In this document: positions 1 to 16,666 of the stretch, piece after piece | Position numbering within the stretch: the stretch's first letter is position 1 | How the letters are laid out: each line of letters opens with the position of its first letter | Virus record (IMG/VR): IMGVR_UViG_3300042465_005988 | Span: 1-41,608 of that record | Origin: a virus | Direction: 5' to 3' (one strand) | DNA: 41,608 bases | Made by a program: the position numbers and the translations under genes | Notes under the pieces: model-generated | Databases searched by the model: none | The model's input: only the letters and a program-made list of their open reading frames with translations | Told to the model about the DNA's origin: nothing

Positions 1-127
1 GCGCCAACTGGTCCGCCTGCGTCCCGGTGGCTAGCACGTCCAGCCACAGTGCGCTCCAGGTACCGTCCTTGTTCTTGCTCCCCGGCCCCTTGCATCGGAC
101 GCTGACCATCCGGCCCTCGCCAATCCA
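1..127. repeat. Left copy of 127-bp terminal direct repeat
   Basis: These 127 bases are identical to 41482-41608. The repeat lies inside the ssb reading frame, and joining the two ends restores that gene exactly. An exact overlap of 127 bases is a usual signature of a circular contig closed by a short-read assembler with k=127. I infer a circular or circularly permuted genome of 41,481 bp rather than a true phage terminal repeat. Confidence 0.95.
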
Positions 128-181
128 ACGCGGCTCTTTGACCGCGTACAACTTCGCCTGCACTTTGATTTCACTTGCCAT
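1..181 (-). CDS. Single-stranded DNA-binding protein, N-terminal part (continues at 41481)
   Basis: This is the 5' part of a 122-aa gene that crosses the contig junction. It starts at ATG 181-179 (reading MASEIKVQAKLY...), runs to position 1 and continues at 41481 down to the stop at 41294. The protein is small and β-rich and ends in an acidic tail, DDSIPF. That tail matches the C-terminal tip by which bacterial and phage SSBs recruit partner proteins. It should coat single-stranded DNA during replication and RecET recombination. The start overlaps the end of the upstream 65-aa gene by 11 bp, so the two are probably translationally coupled. The assignment rests mainly on the tail, the length and the position next to the replication genes. 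The OB-fold itself was not verified. Confidence 0.75.
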   Translation of the reverse strand, partial: MASEIKVQAKLYAVKEPRWIGEGRMVSVRCKGPGSKNKDGTWSALWLDVLATGTQADQLA

Positions 182-368
182 TTGTCACCCCTTCCAGCAT
201 CTGCACAAACCCACGGCGGGCCTCTGCGGTTTTGAGTATCAGGCGCAGGTGAGCCAAAACTGCCGCTAGGTGCGCGTCATGGTGGATCCCCTGCATCCGT
301 CTCAGTTGGTCCAGTTGGCGACGTGCCTCCCGGTTCAGCTCGGTCTGTCCTACAAAGTTGTCTACCAT
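171..368 (-). CDS. Hypothetical 65-aa protein between helicase and ssb
   Basis: This is a small charged, helical-looking protein (MVDNFVGQTELNREARR...), rich in Arg, Leu and Ala, with no recognised domain. Its ATG overlaps the helicase stop by 7 bp and is preceded by AGGAG at an 8-nt spacing inside the helicase gene. Its stop overlaps the ssb start by 11 bp. The tight packing of helicase, this gene and ssb supports a real replication-operon gene. A helicase or SSB accessory role is inferred from position only. Confidence 0.65.
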   Translation of the reverse strand: MVDNFVGQTELNREARRQLDQLRRMQGIHHDAHLAAVLAHLRLILKTAEARRGFVQMLEGVTNGK

Positions 369-1738
369 CGGCCACGCTCCTTTTGCTTGGGTTCGTCATC
401 GTCAATCGGCAACAGGTAGTCATCGTTGCCGTCCACATAGGTCTGCACACTGCCGACCCACTGCATCCGGTGCCGACCGACAACGCAGCGCCGGCCCTTC
501 AAGACCAGCAACTCCGCGTAGCCGTATGGAGCGCCAGACCCGCCACCGCGCCAAGGGCAGATGACCGAGTCCGCATCGGCTGCAATCTGGTCACAGCCGG
601 CCAAGTTCTCAGCCCGCGGCCTTGGGCCTGCCAGCGCCTCCCGGTTCAACTGTGCGGCCACAACGACGGCCACGCCTTGCAGCGACAGCAGCTTGCATTG
701 CCGGCTGGCCTCTGTGATGCGGTCCAGCGTCGACTGACCCCGCGTGCCAAGGATCTGCTGCAGGTAGTCCACAGCCACAATCTGCACGCCATGGCGCTGC
801 TGCAGGTCACTGGCCCATCCGGTGAGTTGGGTTGCACTTGTTGGCTGGCAACGCAGGTGTAGCGGCCAAGCACGGATCTCCGCGGTGGCTTCCTGCAGGC
901 GCCAGCGTTCATCGTCGGTGAATGGAAAGCGGTCTTGGTTGCGGTCCATGACGTGAACGCCTGACAGCAGGCCGGCGAACCGCAGCACAATGTCGACCTC
1001 GCTCATTTCCATGGACAGCAGGGCAGTAGGACGGCCAGCGCGACAGGCTGCAGCCACCCACTGGACGATGATTGACGACTTGCCCCAGCCCGGACGGCCA
1101 GCGACAACGTACAGCCGGCCCGGATGCAAGCCCATGCCATTGGAGTTGTCGAACACCTGCAGGCCGGTTGGCAGAATCCAAGGCGATGGCGACTCGCCAG
1201 ACAGCAAGGCCCCCATCACCGCATCAACCTGGGTCGTCAGTGTTTCGCGCTTGCCGGGATCTTCCGGTAGCGGGACAGACCGGATGGCGTTGGCAATCAG
1301 GGCGCGGGTATGCTGGTCCGCCTCCTCGTGCATCCGTTTGGTCAGGCCGGCGATCTCAGCTTGGTAGCGGTCTTGCGCGGCCAGTGTGGCCAGCCGGCGG
1401 GCCTCGTGTTCGGCAATAGCCGCATGGCTGCAGCCTTGGTTTACAATAGCCTGCAGCGTCTTGGTCTGCGCCTGCTCGCCCAGCGTGGTCAGCAGCGGCG
1501 GGATCAGCTTCTCCCACTCAGTCACCTGACACCGTACGTCTTGCGGCAGTTCGGCATGATAGGCGGCCAAAGCTTGCCAGATTGCGGCGTGGTCTGGATC
1601 CCAGAAGTCCCGCGGCTGCACCAGCGGCAGCAATGCCCCTAGCACGTTGCCGTCAGCGCACGATGACCCGATGACGATGCGCTCCGAGTGCAGGCGCTGG
1701 GCCAGCTTGGGTTCTGCGGCTTGTTCCTTACGCGACAT
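362..1738 (-). CDS. DnaB-type replicative helicase
   Basis: This 458-aa RecA-fold ATPase resembles the DnaB family. After an N-terminal helical domain it shows Walker A GRPGWGKSS at residues 214-222, a catalytic-glutamate strand LLSMEM near 240-245, Walker B VAVDYLQQI with Asp324, and the sensor-like strand VVVAAQLNRE with Gln363. The length matches DnaB helicases. In phages this protein is loaded as a hexamer at the origin and unwinds DNA ahead of the polymerase. The gene overlaps the 3' end of the upstream initiator-like gene by 11 bp and has GAGG before its ATG. No primase domain is visible, so priming probably uses the host primase. Confidence 0.93.
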   Translation of the reverse strand: MSRKEQAAEPKLAQRLHSERIVIGSSCADGNVLGALLPLVQPRDFWDPDHAAIWQALAAYHAELPQDVRCQVTEWEKLIPPLLTTLGEQAQTKTLQAIVNQGCSHAAIAEHEARRLATLAAQDRYQAEIAGLTKRMHEEADQHTRALIANAIRSVPLPEDPGKRETLTTQVDAVMGALLSGESPSPWILPTGLQVFDNSNGMGLHPGRLYVVAGRPGWGKSSIIVQWVAAACRAGRPTALLSMEMSEVDIVLRFAGLLSGVHVMDRNQDRFPFTDDERWRLQEATAEIRAWPLHLRCQPTSATQLTGWASDLQQRHGVQIVAVDYLQQILGTRGQSTLDRITEASRQCKLLSLQGVAVVVAAQLNREALAGPRPRAENLAGCDQIAADADSVICPWRGGGSGAPYGYAELLVLKGRRCVVGRHRMQWVGSVQTYVDGNDDYLLPIDDDEPKQKERGRW

Positions 1739-2741
1739 TGCCGGCCTCTCTTTGTTGGCGGTACTCGACCGACTCGCGCCACTGCGTCAAGGTCCGGTCT
1801 ACGTTGAAAGCGAAGTTCTTGGGCCCGCCAGCCTGCAGGCGCTCTTGCCGGTAGTCGGCAAAGACCTGGGCCAGATGCTCGGCGCTGTGCCAAGCCTCGA
1901 ACGTCCACGGCCTACTGCCCTTGCCGGCGTGGTAGTCGTGACGAGCTTGTGCCCATTCGTACAACTGCGACAGGTCAGCGCCGGGAGTAGTCTCCTCGTC
2001 GATGTGCTTTATCACCGCGCAGTTTTTAGCCAGCGTGGTAGCTTTGGCGTCCAGCGACTTGGCAACGACTGGCGCACAATGGCCGGCCATGACCTCGTTC
2101 CAGCGGTCCGCGAATTGGCGGATCATCTGCTTGGCAAAGATGGCATCTTGCTGCCCCGCAGACAGGTTCCGTACCGGCTTGGCTTGTGCTGTCAGTTCAA
2201 GTTCCAAAGTGACGGCCACGTCTGCGACAGCAGGCGTGTCTTCTGTAGCGATAGCGGAAGAAGAATCCTGCTTCTGTTCCTGCTTCTGCTTCTTCTTCTT
2301 AGATCGATACCCTATACCTACCGTATCCATACCGTACCGACACGGTATAACTCCAGATTGAATAAAGTCGTATGCTTGCACGCGCTGGGCACACTGCGGC
2401 AACTTGCTAATCTCTGCCAGATAACCTTGGCGAGTAGTTGACGACTTGGTGGCGCACCGTTGGGCCTGCATTGGCAACCAGATGGTGAGCGTTGGCCAAT
2501 CAATGGACAGCCAGTTTTCTGCCTCCAATTCGCGCAGCGCCTCCTCGACCTTGGTGCGGCTATGCTCGCGCAACTCAGTCCGCAGGCTGTCCAGATTGAC
2601 GCGGGTTGCATTGCTGGCACGACTAAACCGGCCAAGTGCCAAGTGCAGGTATGCACGCTCGGCCAGTACCGATACAGAGTCGCGCAGGCGCTCTAGGTCG
2701 GGCGGGCAGAACCGCCGATAGGGATCTTCACCGAGTGCCAT
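1728..2741 (-). CDS. Probable replication initiator / helicase-loading protein
   Basis: This 337-aa protein lies directly upstream of the DnaB-type helicase. The N-terminal 115 residues are helical and look like a winged-helix unit (TKVEEALRELEAENWLSID). A lysine- and glutamine-rich linker near residues 150-160 is followed by a C-terminal domain with conserved-looking aromatics (FADRWNEVM, PWTFEAWHSAEHL). Initiator and helicase gene pairs in this order are common in λ- and P22-like phages, where the first protein binds the origin and recruits the helicase. The family cannot be fixed from sequence alone, so the role is inferred from gene order and architecture. GAGG lies 7 nt before ATG 2741. 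Confidence 0.6.
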   Translation of the reverse strand: MALGEDPYRRFCPPDLERLRDSVSVLAERAYLHLALGRFSRASNATRVNLDSLRTELREHSRTKVEEALRELEAENWLSIDWPTLTIWLPMQAQRCATKSSTTRQGYLAEISKLPQCAQRVQAYDFIQSGVIPCRYGMDTVGIGYRSKKKKQKQEQKQDSSSAIATEDTPAVADVAVTLELELTAQAKPVRNLSAGQQDAIFAKQMIRQFADRWNEVMAGHCAPVVAKSLDAKATTLAKNCAVIKHIDEETTPGADLSQLYEWAQARHDYHAGKGSRPWTFEAWHSAEHLAQVFADYRQERLQAGGPKNFAFNVDRTLTQWRESVEYRQQREAGNVA

Positions 2742-2929
2742 GTGGACGCCTCACAAACGAGCCAGCCACACCCCTGTTGACGCAGGGTAGACCGCCAAAG
2801 AACGGCGGATCAGCAACAGCAGTAGCGCAGCGAGGATGCGCCTTGTGCAGTCGGGTGGCTGGCTTGTGTGTGAGTACGTTCAACACGCTGGCTCGCTTTC
2901 GGCAGCCTCGTCAAAGGCTGTCCTGCTGT
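2742..2929. other. Intergenic region between zinc protein and initiator genes
   Basis: This 188-bp gap is the longest within the 5.5-0 kb leftward operon. It holds two adjacent small inverted repeats: CCCTG/CAGGG at 2772-2776 and 2783-2787, then CCGCC/GGCGG just after. There is no T-tract typical of an intrinsic terminator. No convincing -35/-10 pair was seen for the replication genes. It may be an initiator-binding region, an RNA-processing site or an attenuator. None of these can be chosen from the sequence. Confidence 0.35.
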
Positions 2930-3835
2930 CTATTGTGCCACAGTCGCGGCAGGGGTCAAGGCATCAAGCTGCGACTGCAACTTGGCCAGCCGTGCGGTAG
3001 TGACCCGGATCCGCTGCTGAATCTCGCGCACCTTGCGAACCCGGTCGTACTCTGCCCGCTTGGCAATCCGCGCCAGCCTGATCTCTTGGGCCTGCTCTTT
3101 GCCGGCTGACGATTGCCGCCAGCGGTCGGCGCAGGCGCAGTCGTCGCTACTGCGTCGCAGGTTCTGGACGCCTACCTTCCAGCGTTTGGCGCAGACGGTG
3201 CACTCTGCGATAACCGTGCGGTTCTTGCCTTGCTTCTCTGCCTCCTCGATGACCTTGAGGCTGCCGAACACGTCACCAGGTAACGCGACGGTTCGCATGT
3301 TGTGTCGCAGGTCGGTGGCAGAATCCCGGCTACAGCCGCAAGACTGGACGGTCCCCTTGGCGACGTGCCAGCGATGCACGTCCTTGACCACGCCGCACTC
3401 GCAACGGCAGCGGACCATCGCCCGGCCCTTCTGCGTCTCACTGTCGCCCAGCACCGTCAGGCGGTGGCAAACGTAGCCAACTGGCACGGTGACCCGCAGA
3501 CGGTAGCGGCTTGGCTTTGGCGGCTTTGGGTCCGGCTGTTTAAGCGTAACCGGCACCAGCCCCAGCACGTCGAACAAAGCATCGGCACTCTGCGGGCTTG
3601 GCATCTTGTCCACAGGCTTGTCGACAGGGGTAAACGGCTGCCCCGGCCCCGCTCGCAGTTGGGTTATCGGCGGCGGTGCCTGTACCGGCTTGGCTGCACT
3701 CGCCCCGCACCGCTTGCACCTGGGCGGGCGGGAAGTTATGAGCGCCTTCGCGCACGACATTGTGTAGCCGCAATGGCACCTTGCGCTCCAGATTGCGCCG
3801 TTATGGTCCGTTATGGTCCAGTTTTGGATCTGCAT
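2930..3835 (-). CDS. Multi-zinc-site DNA-binding-like protein
   Basis: The protein is 301 aa. The N-terminus has a CxC...CxxC site (ARCHCGY, CKRCG). The middle has one clear unit, CRCECG followed by CSR-type cysteines (SCGCS). A second unit begins FGSLKVIEE and contains CTVCAKRW and CACADRW. The pattern 'GxLxV ... CxCxCG ... SCGC' is common in phage proteins linked to AP2/HNH-type DNA binding, but no HNH catalytic histidines are visible. The C-terminal 60 residues form a charged helix, probably a coiled coil. I chose ATG 3835 because it shares one base with the upstream stop (TGATG); a GTG nine bases earlier is possible. The function is unknown, probably nucleic-acid binding. Confidence 0.6.
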   Translation of the reverse strand: MQIQNWTITDHNGAIWSARCHCGYTMSCAKALITSRPPRCKRCGASAAKPVQAPPPITQLRAGPGQPFTPVDKPVDKMPSPQSADALFDVLGLVPVTLKQPDPKPPKPSRYRLRVTVPVGYVCHRLTVLGDSETQKGRAMVRCRCECGVVKDVHRWHVAKGTVQSCGCSRDSATDLRHNMRTVALPGDVFGSLKVIEEAEKQGKNRTVIAECTVCAKRWKVGVQNLRRSSDDCACADRWRQSSAGKEQAQEIRLARIAKRAEYDRVRKVREIQQRIRVTTARLAKLQSQLDALTPAATVAQ

Positions 3836-4053
3836 CACATCCACCCCTTGGCACGCAAAACCGCCTCAATGCGGTCAAGGCGGGTGGATAGGTCGGGCGT
3901 GGCGGCACGGGCTTTGCAGGCAGCCAGCGCGTCATTGAGCGCCCTTGCTGCCATGTTGTAGGCCACGGCTTGCCCGTAGGCGAACGATGACCGCTCCGCG
4001 GCGCGCAAGGATTCAACCTTGCAACCCGCGTCTTTGCAGTTTGGGCAAATCAC
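3835..4053 (-). CDS. Small zinc-site protein with CxxC N-terminus
   Basis: This 72-aa protein starts with a CPNC pair and another Cys (residues 3, 6 and 11), followed by an alanine-rich helix and a charged C-terminal helix. It starts at GTG 4053 in a GTGA overlap with the stop of the upstream gene. Its own stop forms TGATG with the next gene. The tight coupling on both sides supports a real gene. No family is recognised. Confidence 0.6.
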   Translation of the reverse strand: MICPNCKDAGCKVESLRAAERSSFAYGQAVAYNMAARALNDALAACKARAATPDLSTRLDRIEAVLRAKGWM

Positions 4054-4265
4054 TTGTCACCTCCCAGCAAAGCGGTGAGCTTGGCCAACTCGGCTTCTGC
4101 GGCAAGGCAGCGGGTGCGCCAGTTGACGGTGTGGTCGGCGCAAATGGCAGCGGCATCAGCAAAAGCCTGCAAAGAGTCGCCTAGCGCGTCGTGTGCCAGC
4201 ATCGCGGCTTTGCGCAAGCCTCTTTGGCACTCTGGGCGGTCGCATCTTTCGCAGTTCGTGTTCAT
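4050..4265 (-). CDS. Hypothetical 71-aa cysteine-containing protein
   Basis: The protein begins with a small cluster of cysteines (NCERCDRPECQRG), a possible half zinc site. A helical Ala- and Glu-rich stretch follows. The start ATG 4265 overlaps the previous stop as ATGA, and its stop overlaps the next GTG start. It belongs to a run of four tiny coupled genes downstream of the cytosine methyltransferase. No function can be assigned. Confidence 0.6.
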   Translation of the reverse strand: MNTNCERCDRPECQRGLRKAAMLAHDALGDSLQAFADAAAICADHTVNWRTRCLAAEAELAKLTALLGGDK

Positions 4266-4474
4266 GGCACCCAGTCCAGTCCAACGTCTGCGTCGGGTTC
4301 GGTGTTGCGGTAGCCGGACCCACCGCAGGTCGGGCAGTCAAAATAGCCGTAGGACAGCGGATCCCACTGGCGACCCATGCCGCCGCAGGGCTCGCACTCC
4401 GGCGGTTCGTCGTCGTCGGGCGGGTCAAAGTCGCCGGTCCCCGGCAGGTTGCGGGCGGTCAAAAGGCTAGGCAT
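4262..4474 (-). CDS. Small protein with DnaJ-like CxxCxGxG motifs
   Basis: This is a 70-aa protein. It has an acidic, proline-rich front (DPPDDDEPPE) and two motifs, CEPCGGMG and CPTCGGSG, that resemble the zinc-binding repeats of the DnaJ cysteine-rich domain. Two such motifs could bind one zinc ion. I chose ATG 4474 because GGAG lies 8 nt upstream. A longer frame from 4510 would overlap the methyltransferase gene by 52 bp. There is no J-domain, so this is not a DnaJ. A small zinc adaptor or regulator is possible. Confidence 0.6.
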   Translation of the reverse strand: MPSLLTARNLPGTGDFDPPDDDEPPECEPCGGMGRQWDPLSYGYFDCPTCGGSGYRNTEPDADVGLDWVP

Positions 4475-5091
4475 TGCTGGATCTCCAAGTTGGTTGCTGT
4501 TGCTGTCCACTGTTCGGCCATGGCATCGGCAATGCCCTGGTAGGTTGTGCTGCGGATCTTCCAGCGGTCGTCGCTAGGTGGCAGCTTGTTTTGTCCGCCG
4601 TCAGTCTGGTTGGCCCACCGCTTTCTGCCGTTGACGATGCGCGGTGCGACCTCGGCAGTCGGCACCAACTGCGGCAAGCCGTGAAGCCACAGGCAAGTCG
4701 CCTTGCTTGCGTCGTGGCCAAACTGCCACGGCTGCACAACCTGGTCGGCTGGTCTGATACGGGTGCCGATGCAGCCCACACTGTTTTCGATTGCCCAGCG
4801 CGGTATGTCTGTCGACATAAGCAGCCGCACGAAGTCGAGCGCCTGCTCTGTCAGTTCGGCACGGCCAGGCCTGCGGTGGTTCCAGTGCAAACCGGAGCTG
4901 CACAGGTACTGGCAAGGCGGGTGGGCAATAAGCAGATCCCAGCCATCGGCCAGAATGTCTCGCACGTCGCCCTGATAGTGCGGGCCAGGCGCATCGGTTG
5001 GCAGTAGGTCGCACGACAGGGCATCGTGGCCGCGCCGGATAAAGGCATCGCGCACGGTGCCGCTGTATTCGCAGGCGACAAGGACGCGCAT
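4459..5091 (-). CDS. DNA cytosine methyltransferase-like protein
   Basis: The protein is 210 aa. The N-terminal MRVLVACEYSG followed by an acidic strand end (LSCDLLPTD) resembles the AdoMet-binding strand of C5-cytosine methylases. HPPCQYL, with Pro-Pro-Cys at residues 58-60, matches the catalytic PC motif. A WAIENSVG segment resembles the ENV motif region. The length is short for a Dcm-type enzyme, but short phage 'Dcm-like' proteins of this shape are frequent. It probably modifies phage DNA against host restriction. It is co-transcribed with a 70-aa XRE regulator. No restriction endonuclease gene was seen nearby, so it is likely an orphan. The methylated sequence is unknown. Confidence 0.75.
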   Translation of the reverse strand: MRVLVACEYSGTVRDAFIRRGHDALSCDLLPTDAPGPHYQGDVRDILADGWDLLIAHPPCQYLCSSGLHWNHRRPGRAELTEQALDFVRLLMSTDIPRWAIENSVGCIGTRIRPADQVVQPWQFGHDASKATCLWLHGLPQLVPTAEVAPRIVNGRKRWANQTDGGQNKLPPSDDRWKIRSTTYQGIADAMAEQWTATATNLEIQQCLAF

Positions 5092-5277
5092 CTAGCCTCC
5101 AAACCAGCCCAGCAGGGCGGCGGTGGAAAGGACGGCGACAACCAGCGCGGCGGTCGCAGTCAGGGTGAATACGACAAGCCGGGCGTCGTCTGCCTGTTGG
5201 CAGTCGCAGCGTTGGCGCCAGCAGCCGCGGCAGGTGTCCAGGACATGGCGGTCGTGGTAGCGGTTAGGGGTTGGCAT
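5092..5277 (-). CDS. Small single-span membrane protein
   Basis: The product is 61 aa. Its N-terminal half holds Cys and His residues (CRGCWRQRCDC), and a hydrophobic segment at about residues 33-57 ends GWFGG, suggesting one transmembrane helix near the C-terminus. The gene lies between the XRE regulator (14-bp overlap) and the methyltransferase (stop adjacent to its start). No family is recognised. Confidence 0.6.
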   Translation of the reverse strand: MPTPNRYHDRHVLDTCRGCWRQRCDCQQADDARLVVFTLTATAALVVAVLSTAALLGWFGG

Positions 5278-5476
5278 TGGTCACCTCGCACAGGTCGCCA
5301 ACGTGGCAGCCGTAGACCGTGGCAATCGCCCGCAGGTCGCGCTCGCTCGGCTGGGTCGTGCCAGCTTCCCACCTGCCTACCGTGCGGAGGCTGCAAGACA
5401 GGTCCGCGGCGGCGGCTTGCTGGGTCAGGTTGGCAGCCTCGCGGGCTTGCCTCAGTCGTTTGGGGTCGGGTTGCAT
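5264..5476 (-). CDS. XRE-family helix-turn-helix regulator (70 aa)
   Basis: This is a minimal Cro/CI-type HTH protein: LRQAREAANLTQQAAAADL, then SLRTVGRWEAGTTQPS, then a final helix. ATG 5476 is chosen because GGAGA lies just upstream; the open frame extends further but without a good ribosome site. A promoter with a perfect inverted repeat over its -10 box lies 50 bp upstream, so autorepression is likely. The protein heads the operon that contains a DNA methyltransferase. Its size and position resemble controller (C) proteins of restriction-modification systems as well as phage Cro-like repressors. I cannot tell which. Confidence 0.85.
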   Translation of the reverse strand: MQPDPKRLRQAREAANLTQQAAAADLSCSLRTVGRWEAGTTQPSERDLRAIATVYGCHVGDLCEVTNANP

Positions 5477-5521
5477 CTTGTCTCCGGCTGCCAGCCTCTG
5501 GCGTGATTGCCTGCTGACAAG

Positions 5522-5563
5522 AGACAGTATGCGGTCAGACTGTCTACAAGTCAAGCTGTCTAC
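5522..5563 (-). promoter_or_regulatory. Promoter and operator of the 70-aa XRE gene
   Basis: On the minus strand, -35 TTGACT (5554-5549) and -10 CATACT (5531-5526) are separated by exactly 17 bp. The arms AGACAGT (5522-5528) and ACTGTCT (5539-5545) form a perfect 7-bp inverted repeat that covers the -10 box. CTGTCTAC occurs at 5540-5547 and again at 5556-5563, a 16-bp period that brackets the -35 box. This is the layout expected for an autoregulated promoter bound by a small HTH dimer. The binding protein is inferred. Confidence 0.65.
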
Positions 5564-5601
5564 CTAAGTATTTTGTGGGTTGTGTACGATTGTTGGAAAC
5601 A

Positions 5602-5636
5602 CAAAAGCCCGCAGCGGGTTAGGCTACGGGCTTTTG
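5602..5636. terminator. Bidirectional intrinsic terminator
   Basis: CAAAAGCCCG at 5602-5611 pairs perfectly with CGGGCTTTTG at 5627-5636 across a 15-nt loop. A-tract and T-tract flank the GC stem, so it can terminate on either strand. It lies 26 bp after the stop of the upstream 107-aa HTH gene and just before the XRE promoter. It therefore separates the first leftward operon from the second. Confidence 0.85.
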
Positions 5637-5661
5637 CGGTGGGGTTGGCTGTTGGGAAGGT

Positions 5662-5985
5662 TTACGCCGCTGTGTCCTCTCGCCACTGCTGGATCGTGAT
5701 GCGAGCCCGATGCGGCGGGCACTCGCGCTTGTAGCGCTCAAGCTCTTGGGTCAGGCGCTTGTCGTCTGCGGGGTCGCAGACCAGGTCGGCCGGTTTGACG
5801 CCGTACACACGGGCGATTGCGTGCAGCCTGCCGCCCATCAGAGCCAAGCTACCGCGCTCGGCGTGGCGAAGGGTCGTGATTCCGATTCGCGCGCGTTGTG
5901 CGGCAACCTCGGCGGTTATACCGGCACGCTGGCGGTAGTCAATAAGGTGCAGGGGATGCGCCTGGGGAAGGGTAACGATGGCCAT
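5662..5985 (-). CDS. XRE-like helix-turn-helix protein (107 aa)
   Basis: The core (LIDYRQRAGITAEVAAQRA, TTLRHAERGSLALMGGRL, then AIARVYGVKPADLV) follows the helix pattern of XRE/Cro DNA-binding domains. A charged tail (RLTQELERYKREC...) may serve dimerisation. I start at ATG 5985, with CTGGAG 7 nt upstream. Starting further upstream would translate a repetitive proline-rich stretch that is the shadow of the neighbouring gene. It is the last gene before the terminator at 5602-5636. It may regulate early transcription. Confidence 0.75.
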   Translation of the reverse strand: MAIVTLPQAHPLHLIDYRQRAGITAEVAAQRARIGITTLRHAERGSLALMGGRLHAIARVYGVKPADLVCDPADDKRLTQELERYKRECPPHRARITIQQWREDTAA

Positions 5986-6022
5986 GGGAAGCTCCAGAGG
6001 GGGAAGGGGTAGGGGTTGCGGG

Positions 6023-6274
6023 TTAGGCAGGGGCGAGGGCTTGCAGGGCTTGCAGGGCTTGCAGGGCCTTGGCGATGCTGTCGCCTGTGCCGGACTGGAC
6101 AACGGTCTTGCTGCGGTCACGGACTTTGGCGCGGAATCCGCCGCAGGAAGCTGGGCGCCTGTCGACAGTTACAGAAAACTCAGGGCCGACAGCCTCAAAG
6201 CTCCAGCAGTTGTCGAACACCACAACCATCTTGTTTTGCCGCGCGTAGGCGTACTTGCTTGAAACGGTTTGCAT
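6023..6274 (-). CDS. Hypothetical 83-aa protein with LQA repeat tail
   Basis: It begins at ATG 6274 after AAAGG. The first 60 residues look like a compact β-rich domain (YAYARQNKMVVVFDNCWSF...). The last residues are LQA repeats encoded by a 9-bp tandem array at 6037-6065. The longer open frame upstream is antisense-like sequence and is not used. The function is unknown; the repeat tail may vary in length between strains. Confidence 0.55.
   Translation of the reverse strand: MQTVSSKYAYARQNKMVVVFDNCWSFEAVGPEFSVTVDRRPASCGGFRAKVRDRSKTVVQSGTGDSIAKALQALQALQALAPA
6037..6065 (-). repeat. 9-bp tandem repeat (3.2 units)
   Basis: The unit GGGCTTGCA occurs at 6037-6045, 6046-6054 and 6055-6063, followed by a partial copy. 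On the coding (minus) strand it encodes Leu-Gln-Ala repeats at the C-terminus of the 83-aa protein. The in-frame 9-bp unit is prone to slippage without frameshift. Confidence 0.9.
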
Positions 6275-6324
6275 GTTGTGCCTTTGAGCGTGATAGGTAT
6301 GCGCTCCCCACCGGTGGAAGGTTG

Positions 6325-6711
6325 TTACCAGCGATTGGTGGACGGGCGAGCGGGAACCGCGTACTTGCGACCGTCGGGCATGTGGACATAGAACGGAGCG
6401 CCGCGAGGGTCGCCTTGCAGTTCCAAGGTCATGCCAGCGGACTGCGCGGCCTTGACGGCCAACTTGTCGATGCGGCAGGCGGGACAGATGCCGGCGCGGG
6501 ACAATGCACGCGCAAAGGTGCGGGACTCGCAAGACTTGCAGGCGAGCAGCTTCTTTTGCGGGGCACCGTCGTACTCGAACGGGTATCCGCCGCTGCATTG
6601 CAGTTCGCTCAAGCGGTGGGCAGACGTGGCATACCGCAGCAGGGCAAGCGCGGTATCTGCATGGTCGGCCAAGGTGGTCAGGAACTCATTGCGCCAGGTT
6701 GTGTAGGACAT
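6325..6711 (-). CDS. Hypothetical 128-aa protein with two CxxC sites
   Basis: It begins MSYTTWRNEFL at ATG 6711 with GGAG 6 nt upstream; a TTG 12 bp earlier is less likely. CKSCESR and CPACRIDKL form a probable four-cysteine zinc site in the middle, after a helical N-terminus. The C-terminal 30 residues are β-like (APFYVHMPDGRKYAVP). It is preceded by one copy of the two-hairpin RNA element. No family is recognised. Confidence 0.65.
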   Translation of the reverse strand: MSYTTWRNEFLTTLADHADTALALLRYATSAHRLSELQCSGGYPFEYDGAPQKKLLACKSCESRTFARALSRAGICPACRIDKLAVKAAQSAGMTLELQGDPRGAPFYVHMPDGRKYAVPARPSTNRW

Positions 6712-6747
6712 AGGGTGCTCCAAGGGTAGAAGGTGCTGAAGGCCATC

Positions 6748-6792
6748 TTCAGGCAGCGCATCACGCTGCTACAGCCGCAGTGGGCTGTTTCG
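6748..6792 (-). ncRNA. Two-hairpin intergenic RNA element, copy C (variant)
   Basis: Stem 1 is GCAGCG 6753-6758 with CGCTGC 6764-6769. Stem 2 is ACAGCC 6771-6776 with GGCTGT 6783-6788. On the plus strand it ends in GTTTCG at 6787-6792, as the other two copies do. Order and spacing match the copies at 7100 and 8124, but the sequences of both stems differ. It lies between the stop of the 86-aa gene and the start of the 128-aa gene, both leftward. Confidence 0.55.
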
Positions 6793-6805
6793 GCCTGTTT
6801 GTAGG

Positions 6806-7066
6806 CTAGGCTTGCCAACCGTTGCCCAGCTCACCCGATGCAATGCGAGCCGGAATCGCTTGAAGGTAGTCCACGATGTCAACGCACAGCCGGCGTGCAT
6901 AGGCCGCCTTGTCGGCGTGGCTGGCAAAGGACTGACCAGCGCCCCAGCGCATTGCGTCGTCGATGTCGCGGGGCCAGACGCCTGCGTCGATTGCGGCAAT
7001 CTCGGCTGTCAGGTCGGCTGTCTCCTGCTTGCGGCTGTCTGCTTTGGTGCGGTTGTAGATGGCCAT
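6806..7066 (-). CDS. Hypothetical 86-aa early protein
   Basis: It begins MAIYNRTKADSRKQE at ATG 7066 after AGGAGC. It is mixed helical, with the segments IAAIDAGVWPRDIDDAMRWG and YARRLCVDIVDYLQAIP. There are no membrane or metal motifs. It is flanked on both sides by the two-hairpin elements (A upstream, C downstream). No function can be assigned. Its position near the start of the leftward arm is typical of phage early genes that act on the host, which is inference only. Confidence 0.65.
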   Translation of the reverse strand: MAIYNRTKADSRKQETADLTAEIAAIDAGVWPRDIDDAMRWGAGQSFASHADKAAYARRLCVDIVDYLQAIPARIASGELGNGWQA

Positions 7067-7099
7067 GTGCTGCTCCTATTGTGTCGGGTAACTGCCCAT

Positions 7100-7143
7100 C
7101 GTCAGTGCAGGCGATACCTGCAGACACCCTTGCGGGTGTTTCG
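7100..7143 (-). ncRNA. Two-hairpin intergenic RNA element, copy A
   Basis: Read on the transcribed minus strand: CGAAAC, then a 6-bp hairpin ACACCC/GGGTGT with a GCAA loop (GNRA type), a CT linker, a 5-bp hairpin GCAGG/CCTGC with loop TATCG, then ACTGACG. Copy B at 8124-8167 has the same 44-nt length and the same flanking bases, but different, still complementary, stems. It lies between the stop of the 109-aa gene and the start of the 86-aa gene. Confidence 0.65.
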
Positions 7144-7146
7144 GGC

Positions 7147-7476
7147 TCAATACGCGCTGTAGTGCGCTGTCTCGTTTGGCTCACGCGAACCGGGCCAGCC
7201 ACAAACCACGTCTTCAACCGCTTCAATGGCTGACACCAGCGCCAAGAACCCATCCTCATCATCGGGCTGGCAAAGCGGTACACAACGCTGCAGCTCGCTC
7301 AGTGCCTCGGAATAGTCGCTGTAGGTCATGTGCGACCACTCGCCGCACTGCAACTTGTACAAGGGGCAGCCTAGGCCGCCATGCCAGTCTGTGGCAGTGA
7401 AAGCAGCAGCGAGCAGATCGCAGCTTGGCTCGTCGACGTGGTAGGTTCCTGCGGTCAGTTTGTAGGTGGTGGCCAT
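7147..7476 (-). CDS. Hypothetical 109-aa acidic early protein
   Basis: It begins MATTYKLTAGTYHVDEPSCD at ATG 7476 with CGGAG upstream. It is acidic and has five cysteines and several Trp and Tyr residues. It looks like a compact α/β protein (LLAAAFTATDWHGGLGC, DDEDGFLALVSAIEAVEDVV). It has its own promoter candidate (7517-7546) and a small hairpin, GCCGC/GCGGC at 7495-7510, in its leader. No family is recognised. Confidence 0.65.
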   Translation of the reverse strand: MATTYKLTAGTYHVDEPSCDLLAAAFTATDWHGGLGCPLYKLQCGEWSHMTYSDYSEALSELQRCVPLCQPDDEDGFLALVSAIEAVEDVVCGWPGSREPNETAHYSAY

Positions 7477-7494
7477 GGTCTGTTGCTCCGGTAG

Positions 7495-7546
7495 GCCGCA
7501 GTATCGCGGCAGGTGAACCCTAACAAACTCCAGCCTATGCTGTCAA
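7495..7546 (-). promoter_or_regulatory. Promoter candidate with leader hairpin for the 109-aa gene
   Basis: On the minus strand, TTGACA (7546-7541) is followed 18 bp later by TAGGGT (7522-7517). The same pair, ACTTGAC...TAGGGT, occurs at 35561-35589 and 41257-41285 with a 17-bp spacer. A GCCGC/GCGGC hairpin at 7495-7510 would lie at the very 5' end of the transcript, just ahead of the ribosome site. Confidence 0.45.
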
Positions 7547-7862
7547 GTAGGGTCAGGTGAGAAAGTTAGCCAAGGGATAACACTGCGTTATGCGATTGGC
7601 TGTCTGGACAGGGCAGAATGTGATCATGCGTCTTTTGCAGAATCACGCAGGTTTGCCGGAATCCGCTCCTGGCATGGCGAATCCCTAGTATCCCTACTGC
7701 TACCCTAGACTTGTGTTAGATAACCGCTCTTGACACCTGGGCGTACCAATGTCGACAAGCGGGGAAGGCAGGAAGGGGCGCAAGGTGCAGGAGGTTGGAC
7801 AGTTCGGCAGCCTAGGTGGGGTTTGGAGGCCCCACTTGGCACAACCTGGACTGCAAAACCAC
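7547..7862. other. Non-coding region with inverted and short repeats
   Basis: No reading frame here looks genuine. It holds a nested inverted repeat (GCCAA 7569-7573, ATAAC 7577-7581, GTTAT 7587-7591, TTGGC 7596-7600). CCCTA occurs three times at 7683-7707, spaced 9 and 11 bp. A 6-bp hairpin GTGGGG/CCCCAC at 7816-7835 lies 28 bp beyond the stop of the 73-aa gene. The hairpin may slow transcription, but it has no T-tract. Confidence 0.5.
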
Positions 7863-8084
7863 TCACCCCGGCAGCGCATGGATGCCCTTGTAGGTCGGCT
7901 TGCCCTTGCAACCAATGGACTTCCAAGCGGCAACGCAGGCAGGACCGTCAATCAGGCAGGTCTGTCCACCTGCCAAGGTGCGGTCGATAGAGGCGGTGAA
8001 GTTTGCCAGCTTGGTTGGGTCAGACGCCCATGGGAAGGCTTTGAGGCCGTCAATCCAAGCGGTGCGGAAAGCGGTCTTTGTCAT
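7863..8084 (-). CDS. Hypothetical 73-aa early protein
   Basis: It begins MTKTAFRTAWIDGLKAFPW at ATG 8084 with AGGAGC upstream. It is a small basic protein with three cysteines (TCLIDGPACVAAW, IGCKGKP), possibly disulfide- or metal-linked. It follows copy B of the two-hairpin element and precedes the 316-bp non-coding stretch. No family is recognised. Confidence 0.6.
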   Translation of the reverse strand: MTKTAFRTAWIDGLKAFPWASDPTKLANFTASIDRTLAGGQTCLIDGPACVAAWKSIGCKGKPTYKGIHALPG

Positions 8085-8123
8085 GGTGAGGTTGCTCCTA
8101 AGTTGTGGATTGGGTTGTGGTCT

Positions 8124-8167
8124 CGTCAGTGCCTGCGCTACAGGCAGACCGTCCGGAGACGGTTTCG
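8124..8167 (-). ncRNA. Two-hairpin intergenic RNA element, copy B
   Basis: On the minus strand: CGAAAC, hairpin ACCGTC/GACGGT closed by TCCG (UNCG type), CT linker, hairpin GCCTG/CAGGC with loop TAGCG, then ACTGACG. Compared with copy A, the flanks are identical and the stems differ by paired changes. It sits between the stop of the 95-aa gene and the start of the 73-aa gene, about 40 nt from the latter. Confidence 0.65.
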
Positions 8168-8173
8168 ACCTGC

Positions 8174-8461
8174 TCAGATGCCGATCGGCTCAAGTGGAAG
8201 TGCTTTGTGCCCAACGATCCAATAGCAAACCGCCGGCCCAGCTTGAGCGATGTGCACGATCAGGTCGGTGTTGCGCTCATTCACCCACGCCTGCACAGCA
8301 TCACGATGCGCTGCTTGACGAGCTGCACAGCGGTGCATCGGTTTGATCGCAGAGTAGTTGGTGCTGATTGTCGTGGTGGTGGTCTCAATGACAGCAAAGC
8401 GCCCAACGGGGCTGGCTGTCACGGTGCTGTTTTTCTTGTTGAGCTTGGTTCGGATGAGCAT
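8174..8461 (-). CDS. Hypothetical 95-aa early protein
   Basis: It begins MLIRTKLNKKNSTVTASPVG at ATG 8461 after GAGG. It has a basic N-terminus and a β-rich Thr-rich middle (VIETTTTTIST). A helical segment (RQAAHRDAVQAWVNERNTD) follows. A degenerate copy of the two-hairpin element lies upstream and copy B downstream. No family is recognised. Confidence 0.6.
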   Translation of the reverse strand: MLIRTKLNKKNSTVTASPVGRFAVIETTTTTISTNYSAIKPMHRCAARQAAHRDAVQAWVNERNTDLIVHIAQAGPAVCYWIVGHKALPLEPIGI

Positions 8462-8470
8462 GGTTTGTGC

Positions 8471-8503
8471 CTCAGTGCGTTGCAGGTTGTGGGTTGTGTT
8501 TCA
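8471..8503 (-). ncRNA. Degenerate copy D of the two-hairpin element
   Basis: The conserved ends CTCAGTGC (8471-8478) and GTTTC (8498-8502) are present in the same intergenic position and order as in copies A and B, but 9-10 nt closer together. Only a 3-bp TGC/GCA remnant of stem 1 remains, and stem 2 is lost. It overlaps the stop of the 72-aa gene. Confidence 0.3.
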
Positions 8504-8719
8504 GAAACAAGGCTCAATCATGGCGAGAATGTCGCTGTATGGCCGTCCAACGTGGTTAGCGTAGACCTCAACTACATGCTCCCAACCGTCTTTGTGGTCG
8601 GTTCCGTCAGTGCGAACGCTGTCACAGACGCAGAAGATGATTCCGTTCTCGTCAATAGCGATCTTGTCGACCGTGTTGTTGGCATTCAGGTGAGTGTTGA
8701 AGATGTGGTTGTAGACCAT
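8501..8719 (-). CDS. Hypothetical 72-aa protein, first gene of the leftward arm
   Basis: It begins MVYNHIFNTHLNANNTVDKI at ATG 8719 after GAGG. It is acidic, with β-like character and a CVCDSVR segment. It is the first gene after the divergent control region, about 40 bp downstream of the predicted start of transcription. First early genes in phages often act on host functions, but nothing in this sequence identifies a target. Confidence 0.65.
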   Translation of the reverse strand: MVYNHIFNTHLNANNTVDKIAIDENGIIFCVCDSVRTDGTDHKDGWEHVVEVYANHVGRPYSDILAMIEPCF

Positions 8720-8765
8720 GTGCTGCCTCGCTTGTCAGTGTGTCACCGTCATTGGCGACAACATC

Positions 8766-8794
8766 AAGGTATGACTGCCCCACAACGCTGTCAA
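8766..8794 (-). promoter_or_regulatory. Candidate leftward early promoter
   Basis: On the minus strand, a perfect -35 TTGACA (8794-8789) lies 17 bp from TACCTT (8771-8766), a weak -10. The predicted start is near 8759. The leader that follows contains an imperfect hairpin, TGTCxCC/GGxGACA, and CACTGAC, echoing the 3' end of the two-hairpin elements. It would drive the operon from 8719 to 5662. Confidence 0.45.
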
Positions 8795-8819
8795 CAAGAA
8801 TCTGACATATGGTGCAAGA

Positions 8820-9246
8820 TAGTTTGACAATAGGCTTACTCATCACATTCACGTCGCAGTCAACAACGCCGCAAGGTCTGCAAAGCCACCCAAACCCGAC
8901 GCAGCAGGATGCCCTAGGACGGGCGATTCTGGCTGCAGGTAGGCTGCAGGTAGGGTGCAATCTGCCAAGGTCTGCAGCGTGGCTGTCTGCTAGCTGGCAT
9001 GGCTGGCATGGCTGCAGGAATCCCTAGCACAGCCCCATCGCTCTGCTGCCAGACAATGCTCGCGCAGGCGCAGTGTGTGCGCGTAGACCGTGCCCAGGTG
9101 CGCGTGCGTGCGTGCGGCCAGGCGCGTGCGTGCTCGAGCGTGCGCGTAGGGGCCGGGTATAAGGGAGGGTGTTCCGGCGCGGGTGTTACTCTTATACTAC
9201 CAACCACCCCGCCAAAAAATTTCCCCACCTACTTTCGGAGCCGTCA
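8820..9246. promoter_or_regulatory. Divergent control region, possible origin of replication
   Basis: No convincing gene lies here. GGCTGCAGGTA is repeated at 8931-8941 and 8942-8952. GCTGGCATG is repeated at 8993-9001 and 9002-9010. About 9060-9150 is dominated by alternating GC/GT steps (GCGCGTGCGTGCG-like). It is followed by -10-like TATAAG (9158-9163) and TATACT (9193-9198) and the AT-run CAAAAAATTT. It separates the leftward and rightward arms. It could hold rightward promoters and an origin. No DnaA boxes were recognised. Confidence 0.5.
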
Positions 9247-9453
9247 ATGCAAACCCAAACCGACTACCGCGACTACCGCGACTACCGCGACTACCGTTGG
9301 GGAGTCCTTGCCGGCGTCCTTGTTTTGGCCTGCAGTCTGTGGTCGTACTTCGCCGGCCAGAGGTCGGTCATCCCGCCAGACGGCTGCCCTATCTGCGATT
9401 GCAGTCGGGCGGTAGTTGCCTTACCCGGCGCTGTTTCTGCGGTAGCCCAATGA
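9247..9453 (+). CDS. Small membrane protein with DYR repeats
   Basis: The product is 68 aa, from ATG 9247 with CGGAG 6 nt upstream. The N-terminus is MQTQT followed by four DYR tripeptides. One hydrophobic helix follows (GVLAGVLVLACSLWSYFAG, about residues 20-38). After it come a CPICDC cysteine cluster and a neutral tail. The positive N-terminus suggests a type II (N-in) anchor with the cysteines outside the cytoplasm. It is the first gene of the rightward arm. No family is recognised. Confidence 0.6.
   Translation: MQTQTDYRDYRDYRDYRWGVLAGVLVLACSLWSYFAGQRSVIPPDGCPICDCSRAVVALPGAVSAVAQ
9261..9296 (+). repeat. 9-bp tandem repeat, 4 perfect copies
   Basis: CGACTACCG is repeated four times (9261, 9270, 9279, 9288). 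The reading frame turns it into DYR repeats just ahead of the membrane segment of the 68-aa protein. The unit length keeps the frame if copies are gained or lost. Confidence 0.95.
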
Positions 9454-9653
9454 GAACGCCCGAGACAGCCATAGAGGTACAGTGCTGGCGCTGCAGGTGG
9501 GCACGGTCTGTCGACCTGCTAACAGCGCAGCACATTCCGGCGATAGGGCCGTTTGCTTGGGGCTGCAAGATGTGTCGGGCAGACAACCACCTGACCCGTC
9601 TACAGGCTTGGCGGCTGACGCTGGATGCTAGGTACTTGAATAGACGGTGTTAG
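9450..9653 (+). CDS. Small zinc-ribbon-like protein
   Basis: The protein is 67 aa and starts at an ATG that overlaps the previous stop (ATGA), so it is probably translationally coupled. CWRC at about residues 12-15 and CKMC at about 40-43 could bind one zinc as a short ribbon. The C-terminus is a basic helix (RLQAWRLTLDARYLNRRC). It may be nucleic-acid binding, and its position ahead of the late genes would suit a regulator, but that is inference. Confidence 0.55.
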   Translation: MRTPETAIEVQCWRCRWARSVDLLTAQHIPAIGPFAWGCKMCRADNHLTRLQAWRLTLDARYLNRRC

Positions 9654-9683
9654 TTTTAGCTGCAGGACCACAAGGCTTTACTG

Positions 9684-9826
9684 CCGGCGTGGGTTCACGA
9701 ATACGTCCGGTTAGCCCCGGACCCCTAGACGCTTCGAAAGCTATCCGTCGCGCCGTCGGCTGACACCTGCGGTGTTCGCTAGTCGCTCCCCCTTTGCCAC
9801 AAATAAAAGCAAAGATCAAGGGAGCG
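9684..9826 (+). ncRNA. Structured leader region upstream of the terminase genes
   Basis: In the 289-bp gap 9654-9942, five stem-loops follow each other. They are CGTG/CACG (9688-9699), GTCCGG/CCGGAC (9705-9722), GCTT/AAGC (9731-9741), ACACC/GGTGT (9763-9775), and a long one. The long one has CGCTCCC 9784-9790 with GGGAGCG 9820-9826, continuing as CTTTGC/GCAAAG around an 11-nt loop. No reading frame here looks coding. It may be a structured RNA, a packaging (pac/cos) site or both. The function is not determined. Confidence 0.45.
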
Positions 9827-9839
9827 TTTGGAAACGGTG

Positions 9840-9868
9840 TTGGCAAGGGCTGTGTATTGCAGTATACG
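9840..9868 (+). promoter_or_regulatory. Candidate late promoter
   Basis: TTGGCA (9840-9845) and TATACG (9863-9868) are separated by 17 bp, a fair match to a host σ70-type promoter. It lies directly after the structured region and 75 bp before the first gene of the packaging and structural operon. Confidence 0.45.
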
Positions 9869-9942
9869 GAGGATGCCCTGCATGCTGTGCTTTGGAACAG
9901 CGCGGCCTGCAAGCGCAAAGCTGTCCGTTTGGAGCCTGCCCT

Positions 9943-10164
9943 ATGTCCAAGCCCCTGTTGCCCGACCTGTACGAAGAAGCCACGGTTGTTTACAAAGACC
10001 TTGTGCCAGCGTCTGAGGACGCCCGCGAGTGGTTCAAGATAAGGGTCGCTGTCGCCGGCAAGATAGACCAACTCGCCAAGTCCAAGGGCCGTGCGGGCAA
10101 GGCATCGGGCAACCGGCTTGTCGACGACGGCGGCTTTGACGACGGATTCCCCGACATCGAGTAA
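9943..10164 (+). CDS. Small protein upstream of TerL, possible terminase accessory
   Basis: The product is 73 aa (MSKPLLPDLYEEATVVYKDL...), from ATG 9943 with GGAG 8 nt upstream. It is helical with an acidic C-terminus ending DDGFPDIE. It occupies the place where a small terminase subunit is usually found, but it is shorter than typical TerS proteins and lacks a recognisable HTH. It could be a reduced TerS or a packaging accessory. The upstream part of the open frame overlaps the structured region and is not used. Confidence 0.55.
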   Translation: MSKPLLPDLYEEATVVYKDLVPASEDAREWFKIRVAVAGKIDQLAKSKGRAGKASGNRLVDDGGFDDGFPDIE

Positions 10165-10199
10165 ACTGTCCGTGCTGGGCGCACAGCAAGAGGCGGACA

Positions 10200-12251
10200 A
10201 TGACCAAGGCAATCGAGCGGGGAACAGACGGCGGCAAGAAGGCGGTGCCGGGTAAACCCAAGAAGAAGAAGGGGCCTGTGTCCCGCGTGCAGGCTTCTCA
10301 GGCGGAGCGTCGGCGCACAGACCCCGTGACTGCCTACAAGGTAGCTGTCACCAACCGCGACCCTCTGACGCCCCAAGTCTTGCCGCAGCACGAGAACGCC
10401 GTCCGCAAGCAACTGTCTGCGGGCAAGCAGGACTTCGACCTCCGCACGGAGGAAGGGCTTGCCGAGTTCCGTGCAGCAGCCCGCAAGAACTTCCAAATCT
10501 TCTGCACCCGCGTTGCCGTCATCCAGCCCAAGTCCGGCCCCAAGGAGCGGTTCAGGTGGAACAGGGCGCAGCGGCGGTTGGCAGCCACCATCATCGCCCA
10601 GTTGGCAGCCGGAAAACCGATGCAAGCCGTTGTCGCCAAGGCGCGGCAGTGGGGCTGTTCGACCCTGATAACGGTCCTTATCTCGTGGCTCATGGTCCGC
10701 ACACCGTCCTACAAGGCAGCGGTTGTGCTGCACGACAAGCGGTTTGCCCCCAGTTTTAGGGACAAGTACCGGATGATCATGCAGTCCGCTTGCCGGCTGT
10801 TGGGGCTGTCCATCACCGTGGACAACAACAACCGGCTGCAGTTGTCCAACGGGAGCATGGTTGACTTCTACTCGGCGGGCACCAAGGCCACGGCGGCCAA
10901 CGTCTGTCGGTCGGAGACATACCAGGTCCTGCACCTCACGGAAATCCCGTACTGGTACGATGTCCAGACCACCATGACCGCTTGCCTGCAGTCGGTCGAG
11001 TTGGAAAAGGGCAACGGCGTCTTTATTGAGTCCACCCCTCGCGGGCGCGGCGATGCGTTCCACAACCTGTATTTGAACGCCAAGTTGGGCAAGACCGGCT
11101 ATGCCCCTGTCTTTGTGCCGTGGCACGAACTGGACGGGCACAGCACGGGGTTGACAGACATGCAGTGCGAAGTTGTCCGCAACTACCTGTCGGGCGCCTT
11201 GGGCACCAATGCGGCAGCGGCGGCAGAGCGCGAGTACGGGCTTGTGCCGGATGTAGAGGAGCGGGTGCGACGGTTTGGTCTGTCTCCCCAGCAATACGTG
11301 TGGTGGTGCCGCAAGCTGCGGGACAAGTTCAACCTCAACATCTCGGGCATCAAGACCGAGTTCCCTGACGACGACGAGACGTGCTTCTTGACCTCGGGGC
11401 AGACGGTGCTGTCTGGCGAGCAACTGCAGGAGATGGGCAAGCAGGTCATGCTGGAGCGTGACCGGTGGAAGCGCGGGGTGATGGTCGACGGCAGGTGGCA
11501 GGAGTGCGTCGGCGGCTGGTTTGAGAAGCTGTCCGACTACGACCCGCAGGCGCAGTACCTCATGGCTGCGGACATCGGCCAAGGCGGCACCGACGGCGAC
11601 ATGACGGTCATCGGCGTGGCCAAACTGTACGGCGGCAAGTTGCACATGGTCGCGGGCTTTGCTGGCTGGTGTGACCCTTCGGAAGCTGCCGACAAGGCCA
11701 AGGAGATGTGGACCTACTACGGCAAGCCGATGATGGCACCCGAAGCCAACGGTCCCGGCGTGGCGTTTATTCAAGCCTGTCGTGGGATTGGCATCTACAA
11801 CATGTGGCTGCGGCAAAAGCTCAATGCGGTCGAGCACGCGCTGGAAACCAAGATCGGCGTGCAGACGACTTCGGCCACCAAGCCGGCGATGATTGCGGCG
11901 TTGCGGACGGCGTGCAGGCAGAAGCAACTGGTCTGCGGCTGGGAGCCTGTCTACGGCCAGATGTCGACCTTTTGTTGGACCGACATCAACTGCGTCACGG
12001 CGCGGGCGGTCAAGGGCGCCAAGGACGATGCGGCGATGATGACGGCGATTCTGTGCTGGGTGGCTGGACAGTTGCCCGACCAAGAACGGCTACAGCAGCA
12101 AACGACACAGCGACCGCTGGACTTCTTGCGTTCGGAGCCTGCCGTTGCCGATTGGCAGTCCCCAGGGATAACGCACCCGACGCACTTGCCGCCCGTGTCT
12201 GCGGTCCCGACAGCCCCTCGCCAGTCCGGTTCGGTGCTGGATTTCTTGTAG
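10200..12251 (+). CDS. terL: Terminase large subunit
   Basis: The protein is 683 aa. A basic N-terminus is followed by an ATPase domain. Its parts are a Walker A variant KARQWGCST (residues 147-155), a Walker B region QVLHLTE ending in Glu248, and the coupling motif ESTPRGRG near 277-284. The nuclease domain carries an acidic strand, LMAADIGQGGTDGD (Asp458), and a late acidic motif, KGAKDDAAMM. It packages concatemeric DNA into the prohead through the portal and cuts it. The length and motif order are normal. The genes next to it do not include a standard small subunit. Confidence 0.95.
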   Translation: MTKAIERGTDGGKKAVPGKPKKKKGPVSRVQASQAERRRTDPVTAYKVAVTNRDPLTPQVLPQHENAVRKQLSAGKQDFDLRTEEGLAEFRAAARKNFQIFCTRVAVIQPKSGPKERFRWNRAQRRLAATIIAQLAAGKPMQAVVAKARQWGCSTLITVLISWLMVRTPSYKAAVVLHDKRFAPSFRDKYRMIMQSACRLLGLSITVDNNNRLQLSNGSMVDFYSAGTKATAANVCRSETYQVLHLTEIPYWYDVQTTMTACLQSVELEKGNGVFIESTPRGRGDAFHNLYLNAKLGKTGYAPVFVPWHELDGHSTGLTDMQCEVVRNYLSGALGTNAAAAAEREYGLVPDVEERVRRFGLSPQQYVWWCRKLRDKFNLNISGIKTEFPDDDETCFLTSGQTVLSGEQLQEMGKQVMLERDRWKRGVMVDGRWQECVGGWFEKLSDYDPQAQYLMAADIGQGGTDGDMTVIGVAKLYGGKLHMVAGFAGWCDPSEAADKAKEMWTYYGKPMMAPEANGPGVAFIQACRGIGIYNMWLRQKLNAVEHALETKIGVQTTSATKPAMIAALRTACRQKQLVCGWEPVYGQMSTFCWTDINCVTARAVKGAKDDAAMMTAILCWVAGQLPDQERLQQQTTQRPLDFLRSEPAVADWQSPGITHPTHLPPVSAVPTAPRQSGSVLDFL

Positions 12252-12328
12252 ATTGTCCTTGTGCTTGCAAAGTCCAGCCGATTGTCGCAGCATTGTCCCG
12301 TGCCCTGCACAATGCGGGCGGGTGTTTC

Positions 12329-12676: not shown

Positions 12677-12677
12677 T

Positions 12678-14189: not shown

Positions 14190-14221
14190 CCAAGCAGCCG
14201 CTTGACCAAGTAGGAGGCCCC

Positions 14222-14692: not shown

Positions 14693-14702
14693 AGAGCCGC
14701 CA

Positions 14703-16658: not shown

Positions 16659-16666
16659 GAGACAGC

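Follow-up and report, generated by a model that had tools for sequence, protein, structure and literature searches.

A 41,608-base phage genome carries, at the head of a gene run that includes a cytosine methyltransferase-like gene, a gene for a 70-aa helix-turn-helix (HTH) protein of the XRE type, and the question that this locus raises is what so small a regulator controls. The window analysed here is the whole IMG/VR virus record, which according to PHROGs encodes a terminase, a portal protein, an internal-virion-protein-like protein, a DnaB-like helicase, a RecT-like protein and exonuclease VIII. Within the window no tRNA or Rfam family was found, and a near-identity phage search with positions 1-20000 gave no match. 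The host was not found, and a genome scan with the XRE protein gave 21 distant loci at 31-50% identity.

Gene order and carriers of the cassette

The ORF at 5264..5476 on the minus strand encodes the 70-aa HTH protein described in an earlier note on this DNA, and its assignment is confirmed by Pfam, where HTH_31 (E 8e-15) and HTH_3 (E 1.6e-13) are both above the cut-off. It overlaps by 14 nt the gene of a 61-aa Cys-rich protein (5092..5277, minus strand), which from its sequence has a hydrophobic, membrane-like C-terminus and is matched at 61-72% in the relatives. There follow on the same strand the methyltransferase-like gene (4459..5091), which the window alone has among the four phages compared, and the gene of a zinc-ribbon protein (4262..4474) with weak DnaJ CXXCXGXG and Q-like matches that is common to the relatives. 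Since these four genes overlap or abut, they are likely to form one operon, so that the earlier description of the XRE gene as the leader of an operon with a cytosine methyltransferase-like gene stands, the latter being two genes downstream in an overlapping minus-strand run. Further along the same strand are the genes of an HNH-type protein (phrog_374; 2930..3844), common to relatives that lack the methyltransferase, and of the DnaB-like helicase (362..1738). On the other side, a terminator-like hairpin at 5602..5636 (minus strand; −28.3 kcal/mol, z −6.9, 0/200 shuffles as good), unlisted in the pattern scan, ends the upstream operon and separates the XRE unit from the gene of a second HTH protein (107 aa; 5662..5985, minus strand), the last before the terminator. 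A 171-aa protein (34652-35167, minus strand) has two stretches matching HTH_3, and the 107-aa and 171-aa genes are both conserved in the two closest relatives, G002 and G003.

An IMG/VR search with the XRE protein returned seven loci (records G001-G007). The distant XRE loci (L004-L007), short matches at 40-56% identity, were left out of the promoter comparison, and the three near relatives G001, G002 and G003, of which G001 and G002 are partial records, were used; their XRE proteins are 89-94% identical to that of the window. Most of the window's genome is common to G002 and G003, with terminases 99-100% identical. The G001 record (8.4 kb) resembles the window only from the terminator, the upstream border of the common block, to the HNH gene: all 19 protein-level matches of window ORFs to G001 fall within L014 6675-8424, and the remaining G001 ORFs of at least 80 aa have no window match at E 0.01. 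The best families of G001 are terminase phrog_979, portal phrog_146 and protease phrog_530, against phrog_2 and phrog_156 in the window, while phrog_38 is matched by both terminases. Given that the G001 match is confined to the cassette and that the backbone families differ, the comparison of genes and families shows the cassette to occur in unrelated phage backbones (window, G002 and G003 versus G001). A contig scan of IMG/VR with the promoter core pattern gave three contigs only, which are those of G001, G002 and G003. Other scans recovered G002 and G003 with the terminase, G003 and G001 with the HNH protein, and G003 alone with the 61-aa protein; as each seed protein recovers a different subset of carriers, such scans miss true ones.

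In the block alignment the terminator and promoter are the same in all four phages, and what varies is the gene between the promoter and the XRE gene. G002 and G003 have in this place a 79-aa acidic protein, X1 (pI 4.1, net charge −10 to −11), and G001 has X2, a zinc-ribbon protein of 95 aa; the window has nothing in this slot, so that its XRE gene is the first behind the promoter. For X1 neither Pfam nor PHROGs, PDB or the named phages gave a match, and an IMG/VR scan found it in G002 and G003 only. In G002 (L010 860-930; z −3.5, 2/200 shuffles as good) and in G001 (L014 7150-7222; z −1.6, 13/200) the first gene is separated from the XRE gene by a GC-rich hairpin with a few T behind it, which may attenuate XRE expression in these phages; G003 lacks the hairpin sequence.

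The methyltransferase and the restriction-modification comparison

The product of 4459-5091 falls in phrog_757 (E 1.2e-61) as an ordinary member of a family of solitary phage cytosine methyltransferases. The PPC motif, predicted to be catalytic, and the EN motif are conserved in 90% or more of the 81 sequences aligned. No Pfam family was matched at E 0.01 and no PDB sequence at E 0.1; the predicted structure (pLDDT 81) resembles C5-cytosine methyltransferases, with M.HaeIII as its top PDB fold match (E 5e-6, TM 0.48, rmsd 5.1), and the assignment as cytosine methyltransferase-like holds. The gene is absent from records G001-G007, and the place that it occupies in the window, between the 61-aa gene and the zinc-ribbon gene, is intact in G001 and G002 without the insert; its presence would most simply be a gain. 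It probably protects phage DNA from host restriction, a role suggested for orphan methyltransferases found near anti-CRISPR loci (PMC7648647). The window has in addition a D12/Dam-like adenine methyltransferase gene (35792-36826), in a stretch of ~970 bp missing from G002 and G003, with an in-frame tandem repeat (42-bp, 2.8-copy) at 36216-36334.

The earlier note had compared the locus with the controller-protein (C-protein) circuits of restriction-modification (RM) systems, a reading in which the XRE protein would time the methyltransferase. The features shared with the C proteins of type II RM systems are a small XRE protein, a promoter of its own and a methyltransferase in the operon; size and fold class fit, and the protein encoded downstream has a C5-methyltransferase-like fold, with M.HaeIII as its top PDB match. 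HsdC, a mollicute homologue of C proteins, binds direct repeats (PMC5282649), and it is a direct repeat that is conserved here. The points of difference are the lack of a recognised endonuclease, the accessory nature of the methyltransferase and the weak sequence similarity. No cognate endonuclease was recognised among 30 window ORFs with PHROGs or 8 with PADLOC, the HNH gene being 96% identical in G003, a phage without the methyltransferase. The best chain with a fitting name, 4yba (Regulatory protein C, an RM controller), matches the XRE protein with E 0.13 only.

The neighbourhoods of related methyltransferases bear on the same comparison. phrog_757 relatives number at least 589 in IMG/VR and occur in 157 of 50,697 phage records. 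Among the best 80 phrog_757 records, many of which are short, a local phmmer search seeded with the three HTH proteins of the window found no HTH ORFs at the methyltransferase loci, and Pfam HTH_3 was then searched across the whole records. HTH_3 scored above the cut-off in 4 of the 80, its distance from the methyltransferase being 3.4 kb at the least and 13.3 kb at the most, and below the cut-off within 600 nt in 3, two of these lying upstream on the same strand. For the 25 phages listed with a phrog_757 relative, 3 rows carry under the match a feature annotated as HTH or regulator. Two neighbourhoods were viewed in detail: in Arthrobacter phage Arielagos the methyltransferase is flanked on either side by annotated HTH genes, and in Rhizobium phage Pasto the only such gene follows the methyltransferase, the 2.5 kb before it having no annotated one. 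Some phages thus have HTH neighbours of phrog_757, but this is no general rule. The records of all three near relatives contain the XRE gene, behind another first gene, and not the methyltransferase, and on this lack of gene linkage, the missing endonuclease among the ORFs scanned and the weak similarity the C-protein circuit is rejected as a model for the locus; together with a perfect dyad that is private to the window and with Aca10 as the closest solved protein, these observations speak against the likeness drawn in the earlier note, and a C-protein-like controller that times the methyltransferase is in our estimation very improbable.

The promoter and its repeats

The XRE gene of the window lies behind a sigma-70-like site, TTGACT-N17-CATACT at 5554-5526 on the minus strand (−35 hexamer 5549..5554, −10 hexamer 5526..5531), with 9 of 12 consensus bases. 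As a match alone this site is not above chance, since a 12-kb scan gave three such sites where 2.1 would be expected. The two hexamers recur unchanged, however, in the three relatives, with a spacer of 18 in G002 and 17 in the others. The repeats that had been placed over the two hexamers are real in the letters but are positioned differently. The inverted repeat AGACAGT-N10-ACTGTCT is perfect at 5545-5522 (minus strand), but only its right arm overlaps the −10. The repeated half-site GTAGACAG, at 5563-5556 and 5547-5540 on the minus strand, flanks the −35 instead of covering it, the second copy being 16 nt from the first.

The inverted repeat is the sole match to its pattern in the window, with up to 3 mismatches allowed. 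Repeats of its kind are not rare: when the 101-nt block was shuffled with its dinucleotides kept, 167 of 2000 shuffles had a perfect 7+7 repeat with a spacer of 0-16, and so have 57 of 831 segments of the same size across the phage. Of the seven pairs of the dyad described in the earlier note, all are formed in the window (7/7), two in G002 (2/7) and three each in G003 and G001 (3/7), the right arm not being kept in the relatives, and across the four phages no conserved dyad stood above column shuffles (338, 311, 282 and 263 of 400 for arms of 5, 6, 7 and 8). The inverted repeat was therefore rejected as a shared, conserved operator, complete as it is in the window only. C-box operators of RM controllers are inverted repeats in pairs with a GACT/AGTC core; a dyad with such a core, TGACT-TGT-AGTCA, is perfect in G003 only, and its joint score is not above shuffles. 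The hexamer AGACAG is over-represented in the window as a whole, where it is scattered (36 copies vs 18.6 expected, 0/100 shuffles reaching 36). Elsewhere in the window perfect 9-nt tandem repeats are found at 9261-9296 (CGACTACCG x4) and 6036-6067 (AGGGCTTGC x3.6).

The direct repeat fares better. In the window its 8-nt units occupy 5556..5563 and 5540..5547 and its 12-nt units 5552-5563 and 5536-5547, and of 2000 shuffled versions of the 101-nt block 54 had a direct repeat of 8 nt with its copies within 30 nt. In column shuffles, which keep the kinship of the sequences, a direct repeat spaced by 16 nt was equalled in 5 of 2000 cases for the 12-nt unit and 11 for the 8-nt unit; the counts for other unit lengths were 51 (7 nt), 78 (10 nt) and 268 (6 nt, not significant). 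With five unit lengths tried on four related sequences this is modest evidence, and it suggests that the 16-nt direct repeat around the −35 is conserved beyond chance for the 8- and 12-nt units. That the repeats are incidental, the promoter unregulated and the conservation a matter of close kinship only is consistent with the frequency of the inverted repeat in shuffles and with 52 of 64 gap-free block columns being invariant in the four phages anyway; the kinship-keeping shuffles for the 8- and 12-nt units argue against it, and we consider it highly doubtful. Only these four phages were found with the block, in which they share ancestry, and the conservation statistics are accordingly thin.

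A composite site built on the block occurs once per phage, at 45-48 bits, with the next best at 15.5 bits or less and no further close copies in the pieces scanned (the last 1.8 kb of G003 for a 15-nt core only); a single strong site per phage points to local control. Within the promoter, at 5533-5545, the spacer segment of G001 (GGACAGTCTGACC; AGACAGTCTGACC in the window) is the exact reverse complement of that of G002 (GGTCAGACTGTCC), which suggests that the two differ by a tiny inversion.

Which protein would read the direct repeat, and to what effect, can be argued in more than one way. As the conserved copies straddle the −35, the XRE protein might be an activator that binds on either side of it in the manner of phage CII, and a CII-like family, phrog_4836, does match the XRE protein at E 7e-9. 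Sites of lambda CII, however, have a 10-nt period, and the 16-nt period here, ~1.5 helical turns, would put the two copies on opposite faces of the helix; the −35 is already near consensus, and three other PHROG regulator families score better, two of them named repressors. Such an activator is, on balance, quite unlikely. A different regulator, be it the 107-aa HTH protein, the 171-aa HTH protein or a host protein, could bind the promoter while the 70-aa protein acts elsewhere, as G002 and G003 keep the genes of both other HTH proteins and as in the relatives another gene precedes that of the XRE protein. In G001, however, the promoter block and the XRE gene occur together without the 107-aa gene in its place upstream, and we consider this arrangement unlikely. 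Autoregulation by the XRE protein is plausible.

Kinship with Aca10 and the proposed role of the XRE protein

The stretch S27-T41 of the XRE protein, the expected recognition helix, is identical in all four phages. The closest solved protein is PDB 7XI5 (E 1.1e-5 with the single sequence, 2e-7 with a four-phage profile), which is the structure of Aca10, a repressor of an anti-CRISPR operon (PMC9410881). Like the XRE protein, Aca10 is small, with a single HTH domain, and 20 of 40 residues are identical across the HTH. With an Aca10 fragment the four XRE proteins reach 27-30 bits and the 171-aa HTH protein of the window 17 bits, while none of 28 control ORFs from the 21 distant XRE loci exceeds 15.1. 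Five Aca10 residues, Q22, R34, Q37, Q38 and R44, were assigned by its authors to DNA contacts (PMC9410881); by ungapped alignment two are kept in the XRE protein (Q22 as Q19, R34 as R31) and three are lost (Q37 to G34, Q38 to R35 and the critical R44 to T41). Bridging searches to Aca10, named phages or plasmids gave weak matches only, PADLOC matches reach no further than the HTH domain and NCBIfam matches are below the cut-off, and AlphaFold modelled the XRE protein too poorly (pLDDT 60) for a structure comparison. The XRE protein thus resembles Aca10, by its sequence, but is not classed as Aca10.

What has been published on Aca proteins allows a closer comparison. Most Aca families associated with Acr proteins average 60-65 aa (PMC9410906), and the XRE protein, at 70 aa with HTH_3 and HTH_31, is of this kind. 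The aca genes are reported to follow the acr genes, with one inverted repeat always inside the predicted core promoter (PMC9410906); in the relatives the XRE gene does lie downstream of a variable small gene under one promoter, as in acr-aca operons, whereas the window has no such gene. No known anti-CRISPR gene was recognised in the cassette. The operators described for Aca proteins are inverted repeats (PMC9410906, PMC9410881), that of Aca10 measuring 21 bp (PMC9410881), whereas no inverted repeat is conserved across the four phages here and the one that is perfect is so in the window only.

The reading that we prefer, to which we give about even weight, is that the XRE protein is a small Aca-type repressor of its own mobile accessory cassette, with both binding and regulation predicted. 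The cassette is self-contained and runs from the terminator through the promoter, an exchangeable first gene, the XRE gene and the genes of the 61-aa membrane-like and zinc-ribbon proteins to that of the HNH protein. Its promoter would yield a burst of cassette proteins until the accumulating XRE protein, probably a dimer as in its family, shut the promoter off; the protein would thus control, most likely by repression, the promoter directly upstream, and its likeliest target, to judge from conservation, would be the direct repeat around the −35 and not the inverted repeat of the window. The presence of the methyltransferase in one of four phages and the absence of the second one from G002 and G003 also count in favour of this reading. 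Against it stand the lack of a conserved dyad in view of what Aca operators are, the loss of the Aca10 residues R44, Q37 and Q38, the score of the 171-aa protein, the non-significant 6-nt unit, the small set of four related phages, the poor model of the XRE protein, and the hairpin before the XRE gene in G001 and G002, which could uncouple that gene from the promoter.

A bolder version, that the cassette is an uncharacterised anti-defence locus whose XRE protein founds a new Aca-like family, akin to Aca10 but reading a direct repeat in place of a palindrome, and whose first gene, above all the acidic X1, inhibits a host defence such as CRISPR-Cas, is offered tentatively and is unlikely. Our verdict is that the XRE protein appears to be one more small autoregulator of phage accessory cassettes, of a known kind, with an anti-defence role possible. 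Where relatives have the regulator but lack the methyltransferase, the presence of the two side by side need not amount to a controller circuit. A small mobile cassette with a varying first gene, one promoter and one HTH gene is moreover the layout that led others to anti-CRISPR genes, and from this layout X1 emerges as a specific candidate.
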